64,000 nucleotides of DNA from Craspedostauros australis (Eukaryota; Bacillariophyta; Bacillariophyceae; Mastogloiales; Achnanthaceae): contig JAMXDE010000003.1 of NCBI GenBank assembly GCA_026770025.1, positions 124,001 to 188,000 on the forward strand, in the 5' to 3' direction. Shown one piece after another: positions 4,729-57,058 of the stretch. Position numbers and translations under genes: made by a program. Numbering within the stretch: the first letter of the stretch is position 1; every line of letters begins with the position of its first letter. The notes under the pieces were generated by a model that was not told the origin of the DNA, searched no databases, and saw only the letters and a program-made list of their open reading frames with translations.

Positions 4729-5526
4729 TTACAAAACTGGCGTGGGGAACTTGGATAACCGCTCTTCGACCCACTGTTCAATGCTCTCGTGCCCGCCACC
4801 GTTGCCGCCGAGATGCTCCGGCGCATTGTACGAGGACATCTTCGTTAGCGCAAAGTCTGGCTCCACGAATTGAATGCGGTCGAGTACCTTCTGCTTCGAG
4901 AACGCCTTGGCGAGCTGGATCATGCCGTTGATGACGATGCGGGAGAATTTGTTCGTGCCTGCCATGAGGATGCACTTGGGACGGGTGGGGAATGCCTGGT
5001 GGAGCTTCTGAACCTTCTTGTTGAGATACTTCGTCTTGCTCCCTGAAGAATCGATGACACAGGTGATGCCGTTGCGAAGCGTTGTGTCATCCGCGTGGAC
5101 GGCGAGGTTGTACATGACGCAGGCCTGCGCGTGCGACCGATCATCATCGATGATCAATTCGCCGCACCCGTTGTACACGTACATGATGGCGCAGCCACCG
5201 TGGTCGGGCCCGCACACCAAGTAGCGCTTCAGCTCGGACGCCGCCTCTGGCTTCCAAAGCTCGTCGTCTATGCCATCGGGCACGCCGCACTCGGCCAGAA
5301 TATCCAGCAAGGCCTTGTACTTCGTTGCCGCCACATCGACGCGGCGTTTGCAAACGATGGTCGTCATGGCCAAGAAGCACAGGCCGATGCGCGATTCCTC
5401 GACGCCGTCCTCCATCATTTTCGCCTTCACTTGTCTCATCGCCTCCAGATCTTCGTCATGGTAGACGATGGGCTGGAATGGATGCATGTTGGTTGAGTCG
5501 TCTGTTGGTATGTCGTCGCCTCCCAT
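4729..5526 (-). CDS. CRAL-TRIO (Sec14-like) domain protein
   Basis: 265 aa. The chosen ATG (5524-5526) begins MGGDDIPTDD. The frame stays open upstream to another ATG at 5937, but that extension is Ser/Asn low-complexity and resembles translated 5' UTR. An N-terminal helical region (about 25-95) precedes a CRAL-TRIO lipid-binding fold. Signs of the fold are a central strand with an Asp (GITCVIDSSGS), a helix and then FPTRPKCILMAGTN, followed by INGMIQLAKAFSKQKVLDRI and a YNAPEHLGG gate-like motif near the end (canonical Sec14 proteins have a P-E-x-x-G-G motif there). Family members bind and exchange phospholipids or hydrophobic ligands in the cytosol. The ligand cannot be predicted. It shares a divergent spacer with RPL8. 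Confidence 0.8.
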   Translation of the reverse strand: MGGDDIPTDDSTNMHPFQPIVYHDEDLEAMRQVKAKMMEDGVEESRIGLCFLAMTTIVCKRRVDVAATKYKALLDILAECGVPDGIDDELWKPEAASELKRYLVCGPDHGGCAIMYVYNGCGELIIDDDRSHAQACVMYNLAVHADDTTLRNGITCVIDSSGSKTKYLNKKVQKLHQAFPTRPKCILMAGTNKFSRIVINGMIQLAKAFSKQKVLDRIQFVEPDFALTKMSSYNAPEHLGGNGGGHESIEQWVEERLSKFPTPVL

Positions 5527-50651: not shown

Positions 50652-50966
50652 TCTATTTACTATTCACTATTCACTGGTAGCTTGGGCAGAGACGACTGAT
50701 ATCTGCCTAATGAAGAATACAACACGAAGAAAACGCGCGGGAGGCATTTGATGCCCGAAAAAGCACAGTCAACAGAGGTGGTATTTGGGAGCTATCTTTA
50801 TCGCATGGATCGGGCGAGTCTACGACTACTCTTCGTGTTAAATTGCCACAGTAATTCCTGGATGCGTTTTGGCGCAAACACAAACGGTGCTACATTCTTA
50901 GCTTGCGTCAGCTTGCAAACAGTGGCTGTTTTGCGTCCTGACGCAGAAAAACATCGCTATGGATAC
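50652..50966. other. Host DNA between the two Copia elements
   Basis: 315 bp separating element A from the second element. It ends in GATAC (50962-50966), the left target duplication of the second element. No gene seen. Confidence 0.6.
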
Positions 50967-51104
50967 TGTGATGATCGGGAGACGATACGAGTAGTGTGTG
51001 TGTGTGTGATGTGAAGTTATTATGACTCGTCTCTGTTGTCTCTGCTGAGGCTGTGAACAGGGGTTCATTTGCTGCTCCGTCTGGCCTTCGACCGTATACC
51101 AACA
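50967..51104 (-). repeat. 3' LTR of the second Copia element
   Basis: 138 bp with a (GT)n microsatellite inside. It ends at the pure C/G tract. Very short for a Copia LTR. Confidence 0.95.
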
Positions 51105-51126
51105 CCCCCCCCCCCCCCCCCCCCCC
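51105..51126 (-). promoter_or_regulatory. G22 polypurine tract
   Basis: 22 consecutive C on the plus strand (G on the element strand) directly abut the 3' LTR, exactly where the polypurine tract must be. The run contains no A. The tract length may be uncertain because sequencing of homopolymers is error-prone. Confidence 0.85.
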
Positions 51127-51127
51127 A

Positions 51128-51144
51128 CGCTGACGCAGTCAGCG
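51128..51144. repeat. Perfect hairpin beside the G-tract
   Basis: CGCTGAC-GCA-GTCAGCG, a 7-bp perfect stem with a 3-nt loop, lies one base from the G22 run and between the pol stop codon and the tract. Confidence 0.9.
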
Positions 51145-51148
51145 GAAG

Positions 51149-54100
51149 TTACAAATCCGGACTCCTGTAGTCGTTTACATATGAGGGCACGTTGCGACCC
51201 ATAACTAGGTCAACGTGCCGAAAGAACAGGACCACGGGTGTCTGTTTCGTGCAGATATCAGATGCGTTCATCTCTGAGGAGACCTCGGGGTAGGCAACAA
51301 GGTCTGTCTCGACCCAATCGAGGACCGCGAATTCTCGGATGGCTATGTGTCTTGAGTTCCGAGTGGGCTGACTGGCACTGGCCATCAGCCGGGCACCGCG
51401 ATTATCCTCGAAGATGGGGGTTGCGAACGGTTGCGTCACGCCAACTTCATGGAGAATCGATCGCAGCCAAAGAGCCATCTTGCCGGCATCACTGGCTGCA
51501 ACAAAATCCGCCTCTGTGCTGCTCATGGAGACCGTGGGTTGAACCCTGGTCTTCCATGCGATGGCACCACCTGCAAACATCATGACGATGCCTGACACGG
51601 ACCGGCGGTGACGTATATCAACACCCCAATCGGCGTCGACGTACCCATACAGCGTAGAAGCCTCGAGCCGGCGCGTGGTATCGACGTCGTGCGTAGAATC
51701 GCCAGGAGGTGACAGCTTGGCTGGGGCCGGCACATCGGGAAGATCGACGAGTGATGCTTGTCGCCAGTATGTAATGCCATAGTCTCTGGTGCTTGCGACA
51801 TACCGCATGAGGAACTTGACAGCTTCGAAGTGAGCCTCACCTGGATTGTTTGAGAATTGAGAGAGTTTGACAACGGGAAAAGAAATGTCAGGACGGCATG
51901 ATATCATAGCCCATATGAGTTCTCCGATGGCTTGGTGGTACCCAAACTTGAACTTTGTGGCCAGAGCGGCTCGCTCCTTGTCATCATTTGGAACGTCAGC
52001 ATTGTCCAAAGTCTTGACATACGAGTTGTCCGATAGCATAGGCAATCTGTGGGTGTGCCGCATGTTCTGCCACTGGTTGCGTTCCAGCATCTTGTCCACG
52101 TAGGATGTGCAATAGATGCACACGAACCGTCGAGCTTGATCAACGTCGAGTCCATTGTAGTGCACCATAAGCCCCTGTCGAGTGACGGGCTGGAAAAGGT
52201 TCTTGTCGAGCATGTCGCAGAATGTATCGAAGACACTCTGTGATGGAGCAGTGACCGCAAAGTCATCCACTTGACGTAGGACGTAGATCTTGTTGTGGCC
52301 AATGGCCCCAGTGTACAAACAAGGAGCATGGGTTGTCGAAGTGAACCCGATTTGTTGGAGGATGCCAGTGATGTGCTTGCTCCAGAGGCGAGGCGCTTCA
52401 GGATGACCTTGAAGGTTCTTGTTGACTGGGATGACATGGCCGCGAGGAATAGTGGTGCCATGTTTATGCTTCCACCATGCTTGATACGGTTCATCCACCT
52501 TCATGAAGTACTGTTGTTCGCCAGCAGGGGCTTCCGCAAAAGCGTTCGTGACATCCGAGCTGTACACCTTGAGCTGTTGTATTGCAGCGATGCCAAGGAG
52601 AATCCTGAACTCCGTCAAATCAGGCGTAGCTGCATAGGTGTGTCCAAATATGCGAGCATGTCCTCCCCTGGTAGAGCCATCACAAACAGCACGCACCTTC
52701 TTCCGATTATTCTCATGCGCCTTGATCACATAGACCCATACCCAATTGAAGACGGCGGCATCCGCAGGAGCTGGAACAGGATCACCAAACATTTGTTGTG
52801 CGTCGTATTGGTCCAGCTGCTTGAATTCTGCGGCCTGCCACTGCTCCCAGTCATCTTGCTGTAGAAGCATTTGCCGAGTGAGCTTGACTGGTGCATTGGT
52901 GACACTGGTGGCATGTGCCTTGGGAACGGACGTGTCGATGATATCTCGTACATGCTTCATCTGATCGAAGTACATCTGCGGAACCCCATGTTGAGACAGG
53001 TTGTTGCGAACGTCATTGAATGCGAACACAAACTCCGCAGTGGTAACACGCTGATCACGCAGGGTCTGTATGGCCTGCCGCGCATCCATGGCTGTATGCA
53101 CCTGTTGGCCTTGAATTGAAATGAGGTGTGCCTTGCGCAGCCTGGACCGCCATCGCGTGATACGCGCAGCTGGTTGACCTGACTTGCACTGCTGAAGCTG
53201 AAGTCGATGCCGTTGCTCATCGTACCGAAACTCAAACCCAAGGAAGCCGTCCGTACCACGCACGTCCACACTCTGGCTGAAGGGATACCCAAACGGCTCG
53301 TCGGTCATGTCAACATGCACGATATCGACTTGACCAGTCTCTGCGCACCTTGCAGCAGAAGCATGGACATGCGAATGATCGAGAATGTCTCCCAACGGAA
53401 GGGGTATTGCACACGCTGTTGCCGGAATCTTGGCATTCCTTGTGACGATGGTGGGGTACACGGGCTTAGTAAGGATCTTGTTTGGCGTTGGCTCCACAGC
53501 AGGCGTTGGAAGTCCCAGATCGTACAGCAACGCTGGCCCTGGAGGTCGGTTGGACGACATGTAGTGCGCCTCATCAAAGACAATGTTGCCAGCCCGCTTG
53601 AATCTTCCAGTGTTGAGATCGTAGTACTCATGCACTGACGTCGTAGCTGTGTGACCAACGAAGATGCCATCGTATGTATGAATGTCGAGCTTTGCGGCTG
53701 CCTTGCCGGGCTTCTTCACAGTGACTCGTGCACCAAACACACGGAGGTGGCTGAGGTCTGGTGCGACACCATGTTGAGCCTCATACGGCGTTCGTCCAAG
53801 TGTGGAGTGATGAAGTCAATTCTTGAGGTACACCGCATGAGTCAATGCCTTGGACCAGAAGTCAGGCGTGAGCCCGGACGAGTAAAGTAACGCCCTCACC
53901 ATGGTGCCAAAGGTCTTGTTCAACCGTTCCACTTTCCCATTCATCCATGCGCAATCTGCTCCAGTAGGTTCAACGTTGTATCCACACTCCTAGACCATGG
54001 TACCAAACTGACTGGACCTGGCCAGCTCACCGCCCAAGTCGACACGAACCGCACGATACCCTTCACGGCGCCCAAAAGTAGTCAGGGTTTGCCGTACAGC

Positions 54101-55168
54101 CATGATGGGCGGTGATTTGTCCTTGGTAAGAAACACCCATACATAGCATGTACATGCATCGACCACAAGAAGGTATGCGCAGAATCCATCGACGGAGTGG
54201 ATGACTCGTTGAGCGCCTTGGGACTTCTTGCGTTGGCCGTACGCATCGTCAGTGGCTCTCATGAACCCAAAATCGACATGGAATCTAGCGCCAGCAACGT
54301 TGGCTGTGGCCGTGTCATTGGGGCCGCGTGTGGCATGTTGATATCTTGCCTTGCTGCACGTGTCACAGTGTCGAAGTGGGTGAATGTGCTTTGTAACAGA
54401 CGCCGGAATACCAGTGGAGCACTTGGAAAGCTTTTGCAGCTGTGCCATGCCCACATGCCCAAGTCGTAGATGCCAAAGTTCCGACAGGAGTGTAGGTGAG
54501 GCCTGCCTCAAGGTCATGGCTTGTGGACAAACGCCTCCAAAGAAGTACAGACCGTTGCGAATGTACAGCGGCACTCGAAGATTGTTATCCGGAGACTTGA
54601 AGACGATGTGAGCACTGTGCTGGGTGGATTCGATGCCAAAGCTGGTGTATGGGTTGTCACGCTGTCTGATGATGGACTGTGGCGACACAAGCGTATCAGC
54701 CAGTCGTGGGCACAGAAGAGTGTGCACCGAAATATGCGCGCCGTCGCCACAGGATAGCCGCATGTACCCTTCTCCCGGGCACTCCATAGCAGGCGAAGAT
54801 GAGTCCGCTGCTTCAAGGCTGGAAGGAGTAGTAAATGTGGTATAGCCACATAGGAGACGCGCATGTGGAGTCGCGCAAACGTTGGCACCAAGATCACACT
54901 GACCATGGATTCAGTGGCGCCATTCGCCGTTGTGAGACCCTGCAAGTGCATTTGCACAGAGCGGGACTGTCGTTGACGTCATGAAACGATCCGGTCCCGT
55001 GATTTGCACTTGGGGTGAGACAGTTTGCAGCGGAGATGCAACGCTGGTGGGCGTGCCTTTTTGCATCCCGCATGGGCAAGCAACGGGTAGTAGCCGTTCA
55101 CCGGAGAGTCGCTCTACTTCCGGCCGGCAAGAACAAAATCCTGGAACAGGATCTGCGCCGTGCGCTCG
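51149..55168 (-). pseudogene. Copia pol with three in-frame stop codons
   Basis: One frame from 55168 to a TAA at 51149 (about 1340 codons), in -1 phase relative to gag and overlapping it by about 54 nt. It contains a protease site QCDLGANVCA (near 54890), a zinc region with LWHLRLGHVG...HCDTC, integrase with HVDFGFM and RVDLGGEL and the Glu in NGKVERLNK, RT with VCDGSTRGG and LRQVDDF (VDD at 52262-52270), and RNase H with YVDADWG and SSTEADFVAA. Three nonsense codons break it: TGA (54911-54913) just before the protease Asp, TAG (53990-53992) between the second Asp and the Glu of integrase, and TGA (53816-53818) after integrase. Two are CGA-to-TGA type and one CAG-to-TAG type. No frameshift within pol is needed. 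Confidence 0.9.
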
Positions 55169-56772
55169 TCATCGCTGCCACTGTCGCCGTCCTCACTCGC
55201 TGAGTCACGCCCATGATGGACAAGAGCGATAGCCCTGGCAACTGTGCTTGCACGCTCGCTGGAGTATACCTCCTTGTATGTCTTGAGAACCTTCGCAGCA
55301 AGGTCAGGTTCTGACTCACGGAGCTCCGCGAAATGCAGATCACGTGCCCATGGAAGGCAGCTGCGCGCATGATGTCCCTTGCGGTGGCATGCAGAACAGA
55401 ACGCATCCTTGTCTGGTTGATAGAACTTGGATCGCTTGCACTCGCCGCGCTTACCGTCACCACCAGACTTCCCAGACGAACGTGTTTGCACATGGTGGCC
55501 AACATTGGACGTCGCGGCAGTGGGATCTCCTTGGATGGTACGGGCAAGGGCCGACACGTGGAGGTGAGGTGGCACGCGCTTGTTGCCTGGTACCAGGGAC
55601 AGAGACGTGATATGGTGTTCCACAGGCATGTGGTGAGAGCGAAGACCTTCAAGGAACCGGCGGGAGAGCTCCACATCAGTGATCGTGCAACAGTGAATGA
55701 CGCTCTCAGTTTGTTGGAACTCCAATAACGCCATGGCGAACTTGATGACATCCTGTGAATCGCCATACTCAGGTGCTTGGCTGACGGTGTTGGCGACATG
55801 CATGTACGCGTCGGAGAGCACTTGATGAAGGAAAAGGAAGGACGACAAGTGATGTGGCGACATGCCAAAAGTCCCAGAATAGAATAGGGAGATGGCAGGG
55901 TCGCTCAGATCGAGGATGTCCTTCTGCTGTAACTTCTTGTTCAGCCACTCGCCGGCGCGGATGACACGCTCGTGTGAAGCGTTGCGCGGAATGATGGAGC
56001 ACTGAGGACTGAACGCGGAAAGTGGACAGATGTGGATGTCCACACCAGCAGCCTCGGCTTGGAGTTGTGTGTACCACTTGAGTACTCCAGCAGGCGCGTC
56101 CCCAGCAAGCTTCAGTTCCCAGCGTTGCCAGTAGCCAATGGCGGCATACGAAGGCTCCGTGACCATGGGAACCTCCTCGAAGTGAAAATGAGGGAGAGTG
56201 GCAGGGTTGTTGCGTGCCATGGCGTAGGTAAGGCCAGAGCCGGTGATGAAGTCGACGGTGTGCGCTGGTTCTTCACCAACATCAAGAGGAGCATCGCTGG
56301 TGCCAACACCACGGCCTGCGGTTGCGACGGGCGTGTCACTGCAGGGTGTAGAGGCATCACCATGTTCGGAGGGATGGGCATCGTCGGCGGCACCGCCAGA
56401 TGCAAGGGTACCAGAGGCACCATGGTCTTCAGGGGAAGTCTTGTCGCGAACTGCAGGAGGCTTTTTGGCCTTGCCGAATGTGCGGAGTACAGGGCGTTCC
56501 AGTGTGGTGAACCACGCGTTGAAATCAGGGTTTGCTTCCGCGTATGCGCGAAGATTGCGGAGTCCAAAACAACGAGTGATGGATCCAGACTTCCAGCCGT
56601 CCAAGACAGTCTCGAACTCCTCTTCAGAGGTATTGAGGAAGTCAGCGAATTCACCGTCAGAGGCGATTTTGGAATGCTTGGAGAAGTCAGCGAGCCATGT
56701 CCAATTGAGGCGACGGAAGAGTTCCTCTGTGTCGTGGAATGGAGTTTTGTTGGGGTTGTCACTCGTGGGCAT
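55114..56772 (-). CDS. Gag-like protein of the second Copia element (552 aa)
   Basis: Uninterrupted frame from ATG at 56772 (MPTSDNPNKTPFHD) to TAG at 55114. An N-terminal helical region of a gag-like coat protein (ELFRRLNWTWLADFSKHSK) and a Pro/Ala/Thr-rich linker lead to a central capsid-like domain (about 200-400). A CCHC zinc knuckle CSACHRKGHHARSC lies near residues 455-470, then an acidic C-terminus. It is intact although pol is not, so particles could still form. Expression of pol would need a -1 shift in the 55115-55168 overlap. No classical slippery heptamer was found there. Confidence 0.9.
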   Translation of the reverse strand: MPTSDNPNKTPFHDTEELFRRLNWTWLADFSKHSKIASDGEFADFLNTSEEEFETVLDGWKSGSITRCFGLRNLRAYAEANPDFNAWFTTLERPVLRTFGKAKKPPAVRDKTSPEDHGASGTLASGGAADDAHPSEHGDASTPCSDTPVATAGRGVGTSDAPLDVGEEPAHTVDFITGSGLTYAMARNNPATLPHFHFEEVPMVTEPSYAAIGYWQRWELKLAGDAPAGVLKWYTQLQAEAAGVDIHICPLSAFSPQCSIIPRNASHERVIRAGEWLNKKLQQKDILDLSDPAISLFYSGTFGMSPHHLSSFLFLHQVLSDAYMHVANTVSQAPEYGDSQDVIKFAMALLEFQQTESVIHCCTITDVELSRRFLEGLRSHHMPVEHHITSLSLVPGNKRVPPHLHVSALARTIQGDPTAATSNVGHHVQTRSSGKSGGDGKRGECKRSKFYQPDKDAFCSACHRKGHHARSCLPWARDLHFAELRESEPDLAAKVLKTYKEVYSSERASTVARAIALVHHGRDSASEDGDSGSDDERTAQILFQDFVLAGRK

Positions 56773-56901
56773 GATGGCGATGACGGAACGAGGCGTTGAG
56801 CAAAGAGAGAGATGAGATGAGCTGCGTTTGGATGGGGATTTCCAAAATACAGAGAGGGTGACGAAGCAATGGGGATTGTCTTATATAGTACAAGCGTATT
56901 T

Positions 56902-56911
56902 CCTCATAACC
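56902..56911 (-). promoter_or_regulatory. Probable half-tRNA primer binding site
   Basis: Directly after the 5' LTR the element strand reads GGTTATGAGG. Nine of these bases (GGTTATGAG) are complementary to CTCATAACC, the anticodon loop and adjoining stem of eukaryotic initiator tRNA-Met. Drosophila copia and yeast Ty5 use a cleaved half of that tRNA as primer. No match to a tRNA 3' end is visible. Confidence 0.65.
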
Positions 56912-57053
56912 TGTGATGATCGGGAGACGATACGAGTAGTGTGTGTGTGTGTGTGTGATGTGAAGTTATTATGACTCGTCTCTGTTGTCTCTGCTGAGGC
57001 TGTGAACAGGGGTTCATTTGCTGCTCCGTCTGGCCTTCGACCGTATACCAACA
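56912..57053 (-). repeat. 5' LTR of the second Copia element
   Basis: 142 bp, identical to the 3' LTR apart from 4 extra bases in a GT microsatellite. It begins TGTTGGTATACGG on the element strand. Confidence 0.95.
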
Positions 57054-57058
57054 GATAC

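Follow-up and report, generated by a model that had tools for sequence, protein, structure and literature searches.

Most Ty1/Copia retrotransposons are described as carrying gag and pol in a single open reading frame or, in the case of Ty1, as joining them by a +1 frameshift (PMC3735527). The Ty1/copia elements of diatoms have been described as CoDi (Maumus 2009, PMC2806351). Among the CoDi elements selected there, most had long terminal repeat (LTR) pairs with more than 95% identity, and no more than a single stop or frameshift separated gag from pol; therefore, a break between gag and pol was already known in diatoms. That account also attributed copies without a target duplication to recombination. 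Two further elements have remained mobile with a missing protein, namely, BARE2, which cannot express Gag (PMC3735527), and Tos17, which has no gag (PMC3977881). Here, we analyzed a 6.09-kb Copia element on the minus strand of contig JAMXDE010000003.1 from Craspedostauros australis, at positions 50967-57053 of a 64,000-nucleotide stretch that we refer to as the window.

Like the CoDi elements, this element had TG/CA ends, near-identical LTRs, and integrase ahead of reverse transcriptase, and its host appeared to be of the diatom type, with many matches to silicon transporters and light-harvesting proteins. The LTR pair was flanked by a 5-bp target duplication, and the Pfam matches followed the order gag_pre-integrs, SH3_retrovirus, and RVT_2, which placed integrase before a Copia-type reverse transcriptase, as in Ty1/Copia elements (Pseudoviridae); the integrase core domain itself was unmatched in the Pfam search of the pol pieces. 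Unlike the CoDi elements, whose LTRs are given as 153 to 844 bp (PMC2806351), this element had LTRs of only 138 to 142 bp.

Private stop codons in a recent insertion

A preliminary description of the element, made from the letters of the window, had reported a recent insertion with an open gag and three in-frame nonsense codons in pol, and all of this held. The two LTRs showed 0 mismatches and four gap columns, all in a GT repeat, and the GATAC duplications were perfect. This combination pointed to a recent insertion and was also the rule in the family. The stops needed one correction. The first did precede an Asp that, from the motif seen in the translation, we presume to be that of the protease, and the second did fall in integrase, but the third had been placed after integrase and was in fact still inside it because the match to SH3_retrovirus, the C-terminal part of integrase, came after this codon.

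The preliminary description had also proposed that the element was dead before it inserted and was mobilized in trans, and it had suggested that other copies be checked for the same stops. Relatives were found by searching the element's own genome (74.8 Mb in 90 contigs) with both element ends and two pol pieces. The search yielded eight further close copies that covered at least one stop site (L009 to L016), a fragment (L037), and distant subfamilies (L017 to L027 among them). A sense codon was present at stop 1 in 9/9, at stop 2 in 9/9, and at stop 3 in 8/8 of the covering relatives; these counts included the distant L017, L012 was deleted at stops 2 and 3, and L037 ended short of stop 3. 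In other words, the stops occurred in this copy only, though not every relative was intact, and several insertions that share defects and differ in their target duplications were not seen among the covering relatives. A shared defective master copy carrying the same stops was therefore rejected for this genome. In substance, this was the outcome that the preliminary description had itself named as refuting its proposal. In the distant copies L018, L019, L020, L021, L022, L025, L026, and L027, pol was one open frame, and both gag and pol were open in 14/20 copies examined. Because of these open copies and the sense codons at the covered sites, we concluded that intact-looking relatives exist and that the stops are this copy's own. 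The element is one insertion of a Ty1/Copia family that is apparently active in its diatom-like host.

Insertions throughout the family looked young. Both LTRs were complete in 15 rows, all of which had a perfect 5-bp duplication and 14 of which had no LTR mismatch (L025 had 1); L022 and L024, which are one insertion, were counted as two rows, and L015 and L016 (cut 3' LTR) and L017 (a recombinant) were left out. Eight close aligned copies nevertheless diverged from one another by roughly 1 to 8% along the full length of the element. Variable columns numbered 0/142 in the 5' LTR, 272/1658 in gag, and 567/3962 in pol. The 3' LTR stretch had 28 variable columns in the family alignment, which we attributed to L015 and L016, whose 3' LTRs are cut; 20 were private changes of these two copies, and the other 8 were left unsorted. 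Three stem branches, each leading to two copies, carried 61 nonsynonymous and 196 synonymous changes. Since the LTR pairs were clean while the bodies differed, and since the stem branches showed this 61:196 ratio, most of the divergence probably predates the present insertions and arose in lineages whose LTR and proteins were under selection.

Timing of the decay of pol

We put the chance at about even that this copy decayed in place, as part of a family that otherwise seems to be active. On this explanation, the copy would derive from a working lineage, it would then have been silenced and CpG methylated, pol would have been lost by ordinary point changes in the chromosome, and the two short LTRs would have escaped change by moderate luck. 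The composition of the private changes was consistent with such a history. Specifically, 42 of the 91 private changes were of the C>T type at CpG (35/91 by a stricter count), compared to 41/257 for the three stem branches (Fisher p 2.7e-8) and 20/127 for six further branches of this subfamily that each lead to a single copy (p 1.6e-6), and within the close subfamily the excess was confined to this copy and L012. The ratio of nonsynonymous (including stop) to synonymous changes was 47:42, which differed from that of the stem branches (p 7e-7) and fell short of the neutral share (p 0.003). We estimated that the coding changes were a mixture, with about 58/89 neutral-like. An estimated 34 or so neutral-like changes in pol would be expected to include 1.4 stops, and three or more would arise with a P of 0.17; therefore, three stops were not surprising. 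The neutral-like part of the private load predicted 2.2 to 2.8 LTR changes, with a P of 0.06 to 0.12 for observing none.

The private changes were close to Poisson distributed (variance/mean of 1.1 in 100-bp bins). Clumped changes were seen in L012 (2.2) and on the L011/L016 stem (2.5). When the private states were polarized with L010 over the covered part of pol, 40 sites were derived, 10 were ancestral, and 2 were unclear; given the ancestral states, some of the 91 do not represent changes in this copy. We also considered editing of the element in one direction and rejected it, as the differences between all copies were mostly transitions of both kinds.

Several observations weighed against decay in place. 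The preliminary description had argued that stops arising after insertion would require three hits in about 4 kb and none in about 280 bp of LTR, an argument that proved weaker than it had seemed. If all private changes occurred after insertion, 4.3 LTR changes would be expected and the P of clean LTRs was 0.014; with the values of 0.06 to 0.12 for the neutral-like part taken into account, the clean LTRs weighed only mildly against decay in place. In addition, 13/14 other rows with two LTRs had no LTR mismatch, so most insertions in the family are very young, and the age of this copy would be exceptional. Private changes were scarce after element position 5150 (3/829 sites versus 88/4455; permutation p 0.008), a shortfall not expected from uniform decay in place, although variation in this region was lower across the whole family. 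The substitutions were also unaccompanied by small coding indels, and the 47:42 ratio was only marginally different from the 49:76 of the six other single-copy branches (p 0.052). Finally, methylation was a presumption, and the CpG pattern was not peculiar to this copy and L012 once another subfamily was considered: CpG-type changes made up 31 of 88 private changes in L025, 26 of 99 in L027, and 15 of 95 in L026. Because L025 was nearly as rich in such changes and yet had open gag and pol, the CpG pattern alone is no marker of a dead copy.

The strongest competitor was mobilization in trans, to which we assign somewhat less than an even chance, such that decay in place was slightly the more likely of the two. 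A silenced source would have decayed in the chromosome and later been transcribed, and its RNA would have been packaged and reverse transcribed by the proteins of intact relatives; both LTRs would then be fresh from one RNA and hence match. This history would account for LTRs that were clean despite about 58 neutral-like changes and for the few private changes at the 3' end, as expected with a fresh-template 3' end, and relatives with open gag and pol were available to supply the proteins. BARE2 (PMC3735527) and Tos17 (PMC3977881) provided precedents in that each is likewise short of a needed protein; those elements lack Gag, however, whereas the defects here were point changes in pol and were found in one copy only. 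The stops were shared by no covering relative, so there was no trace of a source or of sibling insertions, and no sampled copy was near-identical to the 3' end of this copy, so no donor was seen. Decay in place would likewise leave matching LTRs by moderate chance, and for this copy we put the gain in likelihood at only about two- to fourfold, as an estimate rather than a computed value. Arrival as a dead element mobilized in trans was possible for this copy and not required.

The remaining explanations fared worse. Gene conversion from family members could have overwritten the LTRs of an element older than they imply, and both the invariant 5' LTR of the eight aligned copies and L017, in which the 3' LTR and about 300 bp of this subfamily were joined to a body about 69% identical to this element, would suit such homogenization. 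We consider it improbable. It needs conversion of both LTRs with the target duplications untouched, L017 looks like a product of crossing-over rather than of conversion, and purifying selection on a compact LTR accounts for the identity between copies. Isolated LTR matches, moreover, do diverge; among five, two had 10/131 and 12/142 mismatched columns, one had 4 mismatches, and two had 0. The preliminary description had offered readthrough of the stops and sequence errors as alternatives. Readthrough as a regulated way to Pol might seem plausible in a family with a gag-pol frame change, but the presumed recoding event is a frameshift upstream of all three stops, and no covering relative keeps any of them. 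Because the codons were not kept as stops, readthrough is unlikely as a family trait, and we give it a very small chance. Sequencing or assembly error is still less credible, with a chance that we regard as close to nil. The copies L022 and L024, which represent a single insertion found on two contigs, were 6 gap columns apart, so indel errors may exist; across their 5848 aligned columns there were 0 mismatches, which suggests from this one pair that substitution errors are rare, and the stops were substitutions among 91 private ones with a CpG-rich pattern.

Mobilization in trans was better supported by a sister copy than by the copy in the window. L012 (C15:392800-398700) had lost 240 and 900 bp in two in-frame deletions, and gag and pol were otherwise open. 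It carried 118 private changes, 47 at CpG, with a nonsynonymous-to-synonymous ratio of 76:40 that did not differ from neutral (p 0.31), and its private changes became fewer toward the 3' end (22/1679 versus 96/2648 sites; permutation p 0.002). Its LTRs were clean and its duplication perfect, which had a P of about 0.001 if the changes followed insertion. No stops were seen where 3.6 were expected, a misfit with simple decay. L012 is therefore the better case for mobilization in trans, and it is possibly a non-autonomous lineage. L023 may belong in the same category; it was about 2 kb shorter than its relatives, its LTRs were clean, and its duplication was perfect. Because each is a single copy, L012 and L023 do not prove mobilization in trans.

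A candidate -1 frameshift signal between gag and pol

The preliminary description had missed that pol lay in the -1 frame relative to gag. The stop that ends gag was normal for the family, since all eight aligned relatives had it. A -1 frame change is unusual for Copia elements, and we regard it as a more interesting feature than the stops in pol.

The heptamer GGATTTT was present in the gag/pol overlap in 18/18 copies read, a set that did not include L010 and L024. In 15 copies, it was in the gag phase with the -1 frame open from there on, and in 10 copies the gag stop followed 18 nt after it. A hairpin began 6 nt after the heptamer. Among 10 distinct sequences standing for the 18 copies, 94.2% of the cells in the hairpin alignment were paired, and changes on both sides of a pair were found in 14 cells (0/500 shuffles), compared to 0 to 3 in controls that were slid along the sequence. 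The locus thus combined two hallmarks of a -1 signal: a conserved in-phase heptamer in the overlap and a downstream structure with compensatory changes.

Other results argued against this interpretation. The four pairs that had changed on both sides were reached by 148/500 shuffles, one hairpin pair was unpaired in 7/10 rows, and the fold-energy z-score was below -2 in only 2/10 copies. Furthermore, GGATTTT is not a classical XXXYYYZ heptamer, and a classical one was found in only 2/10 overlaps. It also counts against the hairpin statistics that the sequences are related and that two frames are coding over part of the stretch.

A precedent for the heptamer comes from pea enation mosaic virus RNA2, in which GGAUUUU is a tested slippery site (PMC4737148). 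As in that RNA, the heptamer here was followed by a stop soon after and by a stem a few nucleotides downstream. The virus is unrelated to this element, however, and its stop lies 3 nt after the heptamer and its hairpin measures 88 to 95 nt, whereas here the gag stop fell 18 nt after the heptamer and inside a 36-nt hairpin. Overall, GGATTTT and the hairpin probably constitute a -1 frameshift signal. If so, Gag in this family would come from gag, and ribosomes that slip into the -1 frame at GGATTTT, just before the gag stop, would produce Gag-Pol. This arrangement would resemble that of Ty1 in solving the problem of making Gag in excess in a Copia element, and it would differ from that of Ty1 and of typical Copia elements in that the frame change is -1 rather than +1 and gag and pol do not share a single open reading frame (PMC3735527). 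The excerpts of the CoDi account (PMC2806351) made no mention of GGATTTT with a hairpin, and a limited literature search found no description of a -1 signal of this kind in Copia elements, which is weak evidence of absence.

Element layout and genomic surroundings

The coordinates of the features are collected in Table 1. The pure G run varied in length between family copies. The presumed primer-binding site appeared to resemble the complement of the anticodon arm of an initiator tRNA-Met. The translation of gag contained a visible CX2CX4HX4C sequence, which we presume to be a zinc knuckle; the gag and protease regions had no Pfam match at E 0.01. When the pieces of pol were searched, gag_pre-integrs matched between stops 1 and 2 (53993-54910), and SH3_retrovirus and RVT_2 matched after stop 3 (51152-53815).

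Table 1. Features of the Copia element and its flanks (window positions)
Feature	Position	Strand	Remarks
Target-site duplication GATAC, left copy	50962-50966	.	
3' LTR, 138 bp	50967-51104	minus	0 mismatches to 5' LTR; GT repeat 4 bases shorter
Pure G run of 22 nt (element sense)	51105-51126	minus	Adjoins 3' LTR; presumed polypurine tract
pol frame	51149-55165	minus	-1 relative to gag; 3 stops; pieces searched apart
Nonsense codon 3	53816-53818	minus	Ahead of SH3-like domain; private, 0/8 covering relatives
Nonsense codon 2	53990-53992	minus	Within integrase; private, 0/9 covering relatives
Nonsense codon 1	54911-54913	minus	Six codons ahead of presumed protease Asp; private, 0/9 covering relatives
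Bulged hairpin, 12 pairs	55093-55128	minus	Spans gag stop; presumed frameshift stimulator
gag stop codon	55114-55116	minus	Present in 8/8 aligned relatives
gag, open, 552 aa from ATG	55114-56772	minus	
GGATTTT, gag phase G GAT TTT	55135-55141	minus	Presumed -1 slippery site; 6 nt ahead of hairpin
Presumed primer-binding site	56894-56911	minus	Adjoins 5' LTR
5' LTR, 142 bp	56912-57053	minus	Only repeat length varies among 8 aligned family copies
Target-site duplication GATAC, right copy	57054-57058	.	
Open frame beside element, 569 codons	57477-59186	plus	No Pfam match at E 0.01

Some features of the other copies were also recorded. In element sense, 7/14 distinct insertions with two LTRs had target duplications ending in TC, and this copy and L013 had the same five letters at different loci; the family possibly has a weak target preference. 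L017 (C3:2350200-2357200) had no target duplication, and its last 300 bp or so and its 3' LTR belonged to the subfamily of this element, attached to the body of another; it is a recombinant element. L022 (C25) and L024 (C33, near the contig start) were the same insertion, and L024 was broken only by indels, which suggests that the gap differences reflect assembly indel errors or a second haplotype.

The genome contained 61 matches to light-harvesting proteins and 88 to the silicon transporter family PF03842 (e.g., on C2, C9, C11, C24, C37, and C61). In the case of PF03842, 32 rows covered at least 475 of the 513 profile positions, and 28 of these had no stop. For most species, a figure of three to five silicon transporter copies is given (PMC10700740); the number here represents either a very large expansion or, in part, separate haplotypes.

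Implications for diatom Copia elements

These results corrected a tempting inference: two short matching LTRs date the mutations in the body of an element poorly, and sister copies can change the reading. A functional frameshift signal would add a -1 recoding mechanism to a superfamily that has been described as mostly single-ORF. A much broader scenario, which we consider doubtful, is that a whole clade of diatom Copia elements uses -1 frameshifting at GGAUUUU with a covarying hairpin, in place of the single ORF or the +1 shift of Ty1 that are usual in Copia, and that excess Gag made from its own frame lets the family remobilize copies with a decayed or deleted pol (this copy, L012, and L023), which would feed sequence that decayed in the chromosome into new insertions. 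If it is true that copies such as L012 moved in trans, then the recycling of decayed elements would have a compact and testable example in diatoms.

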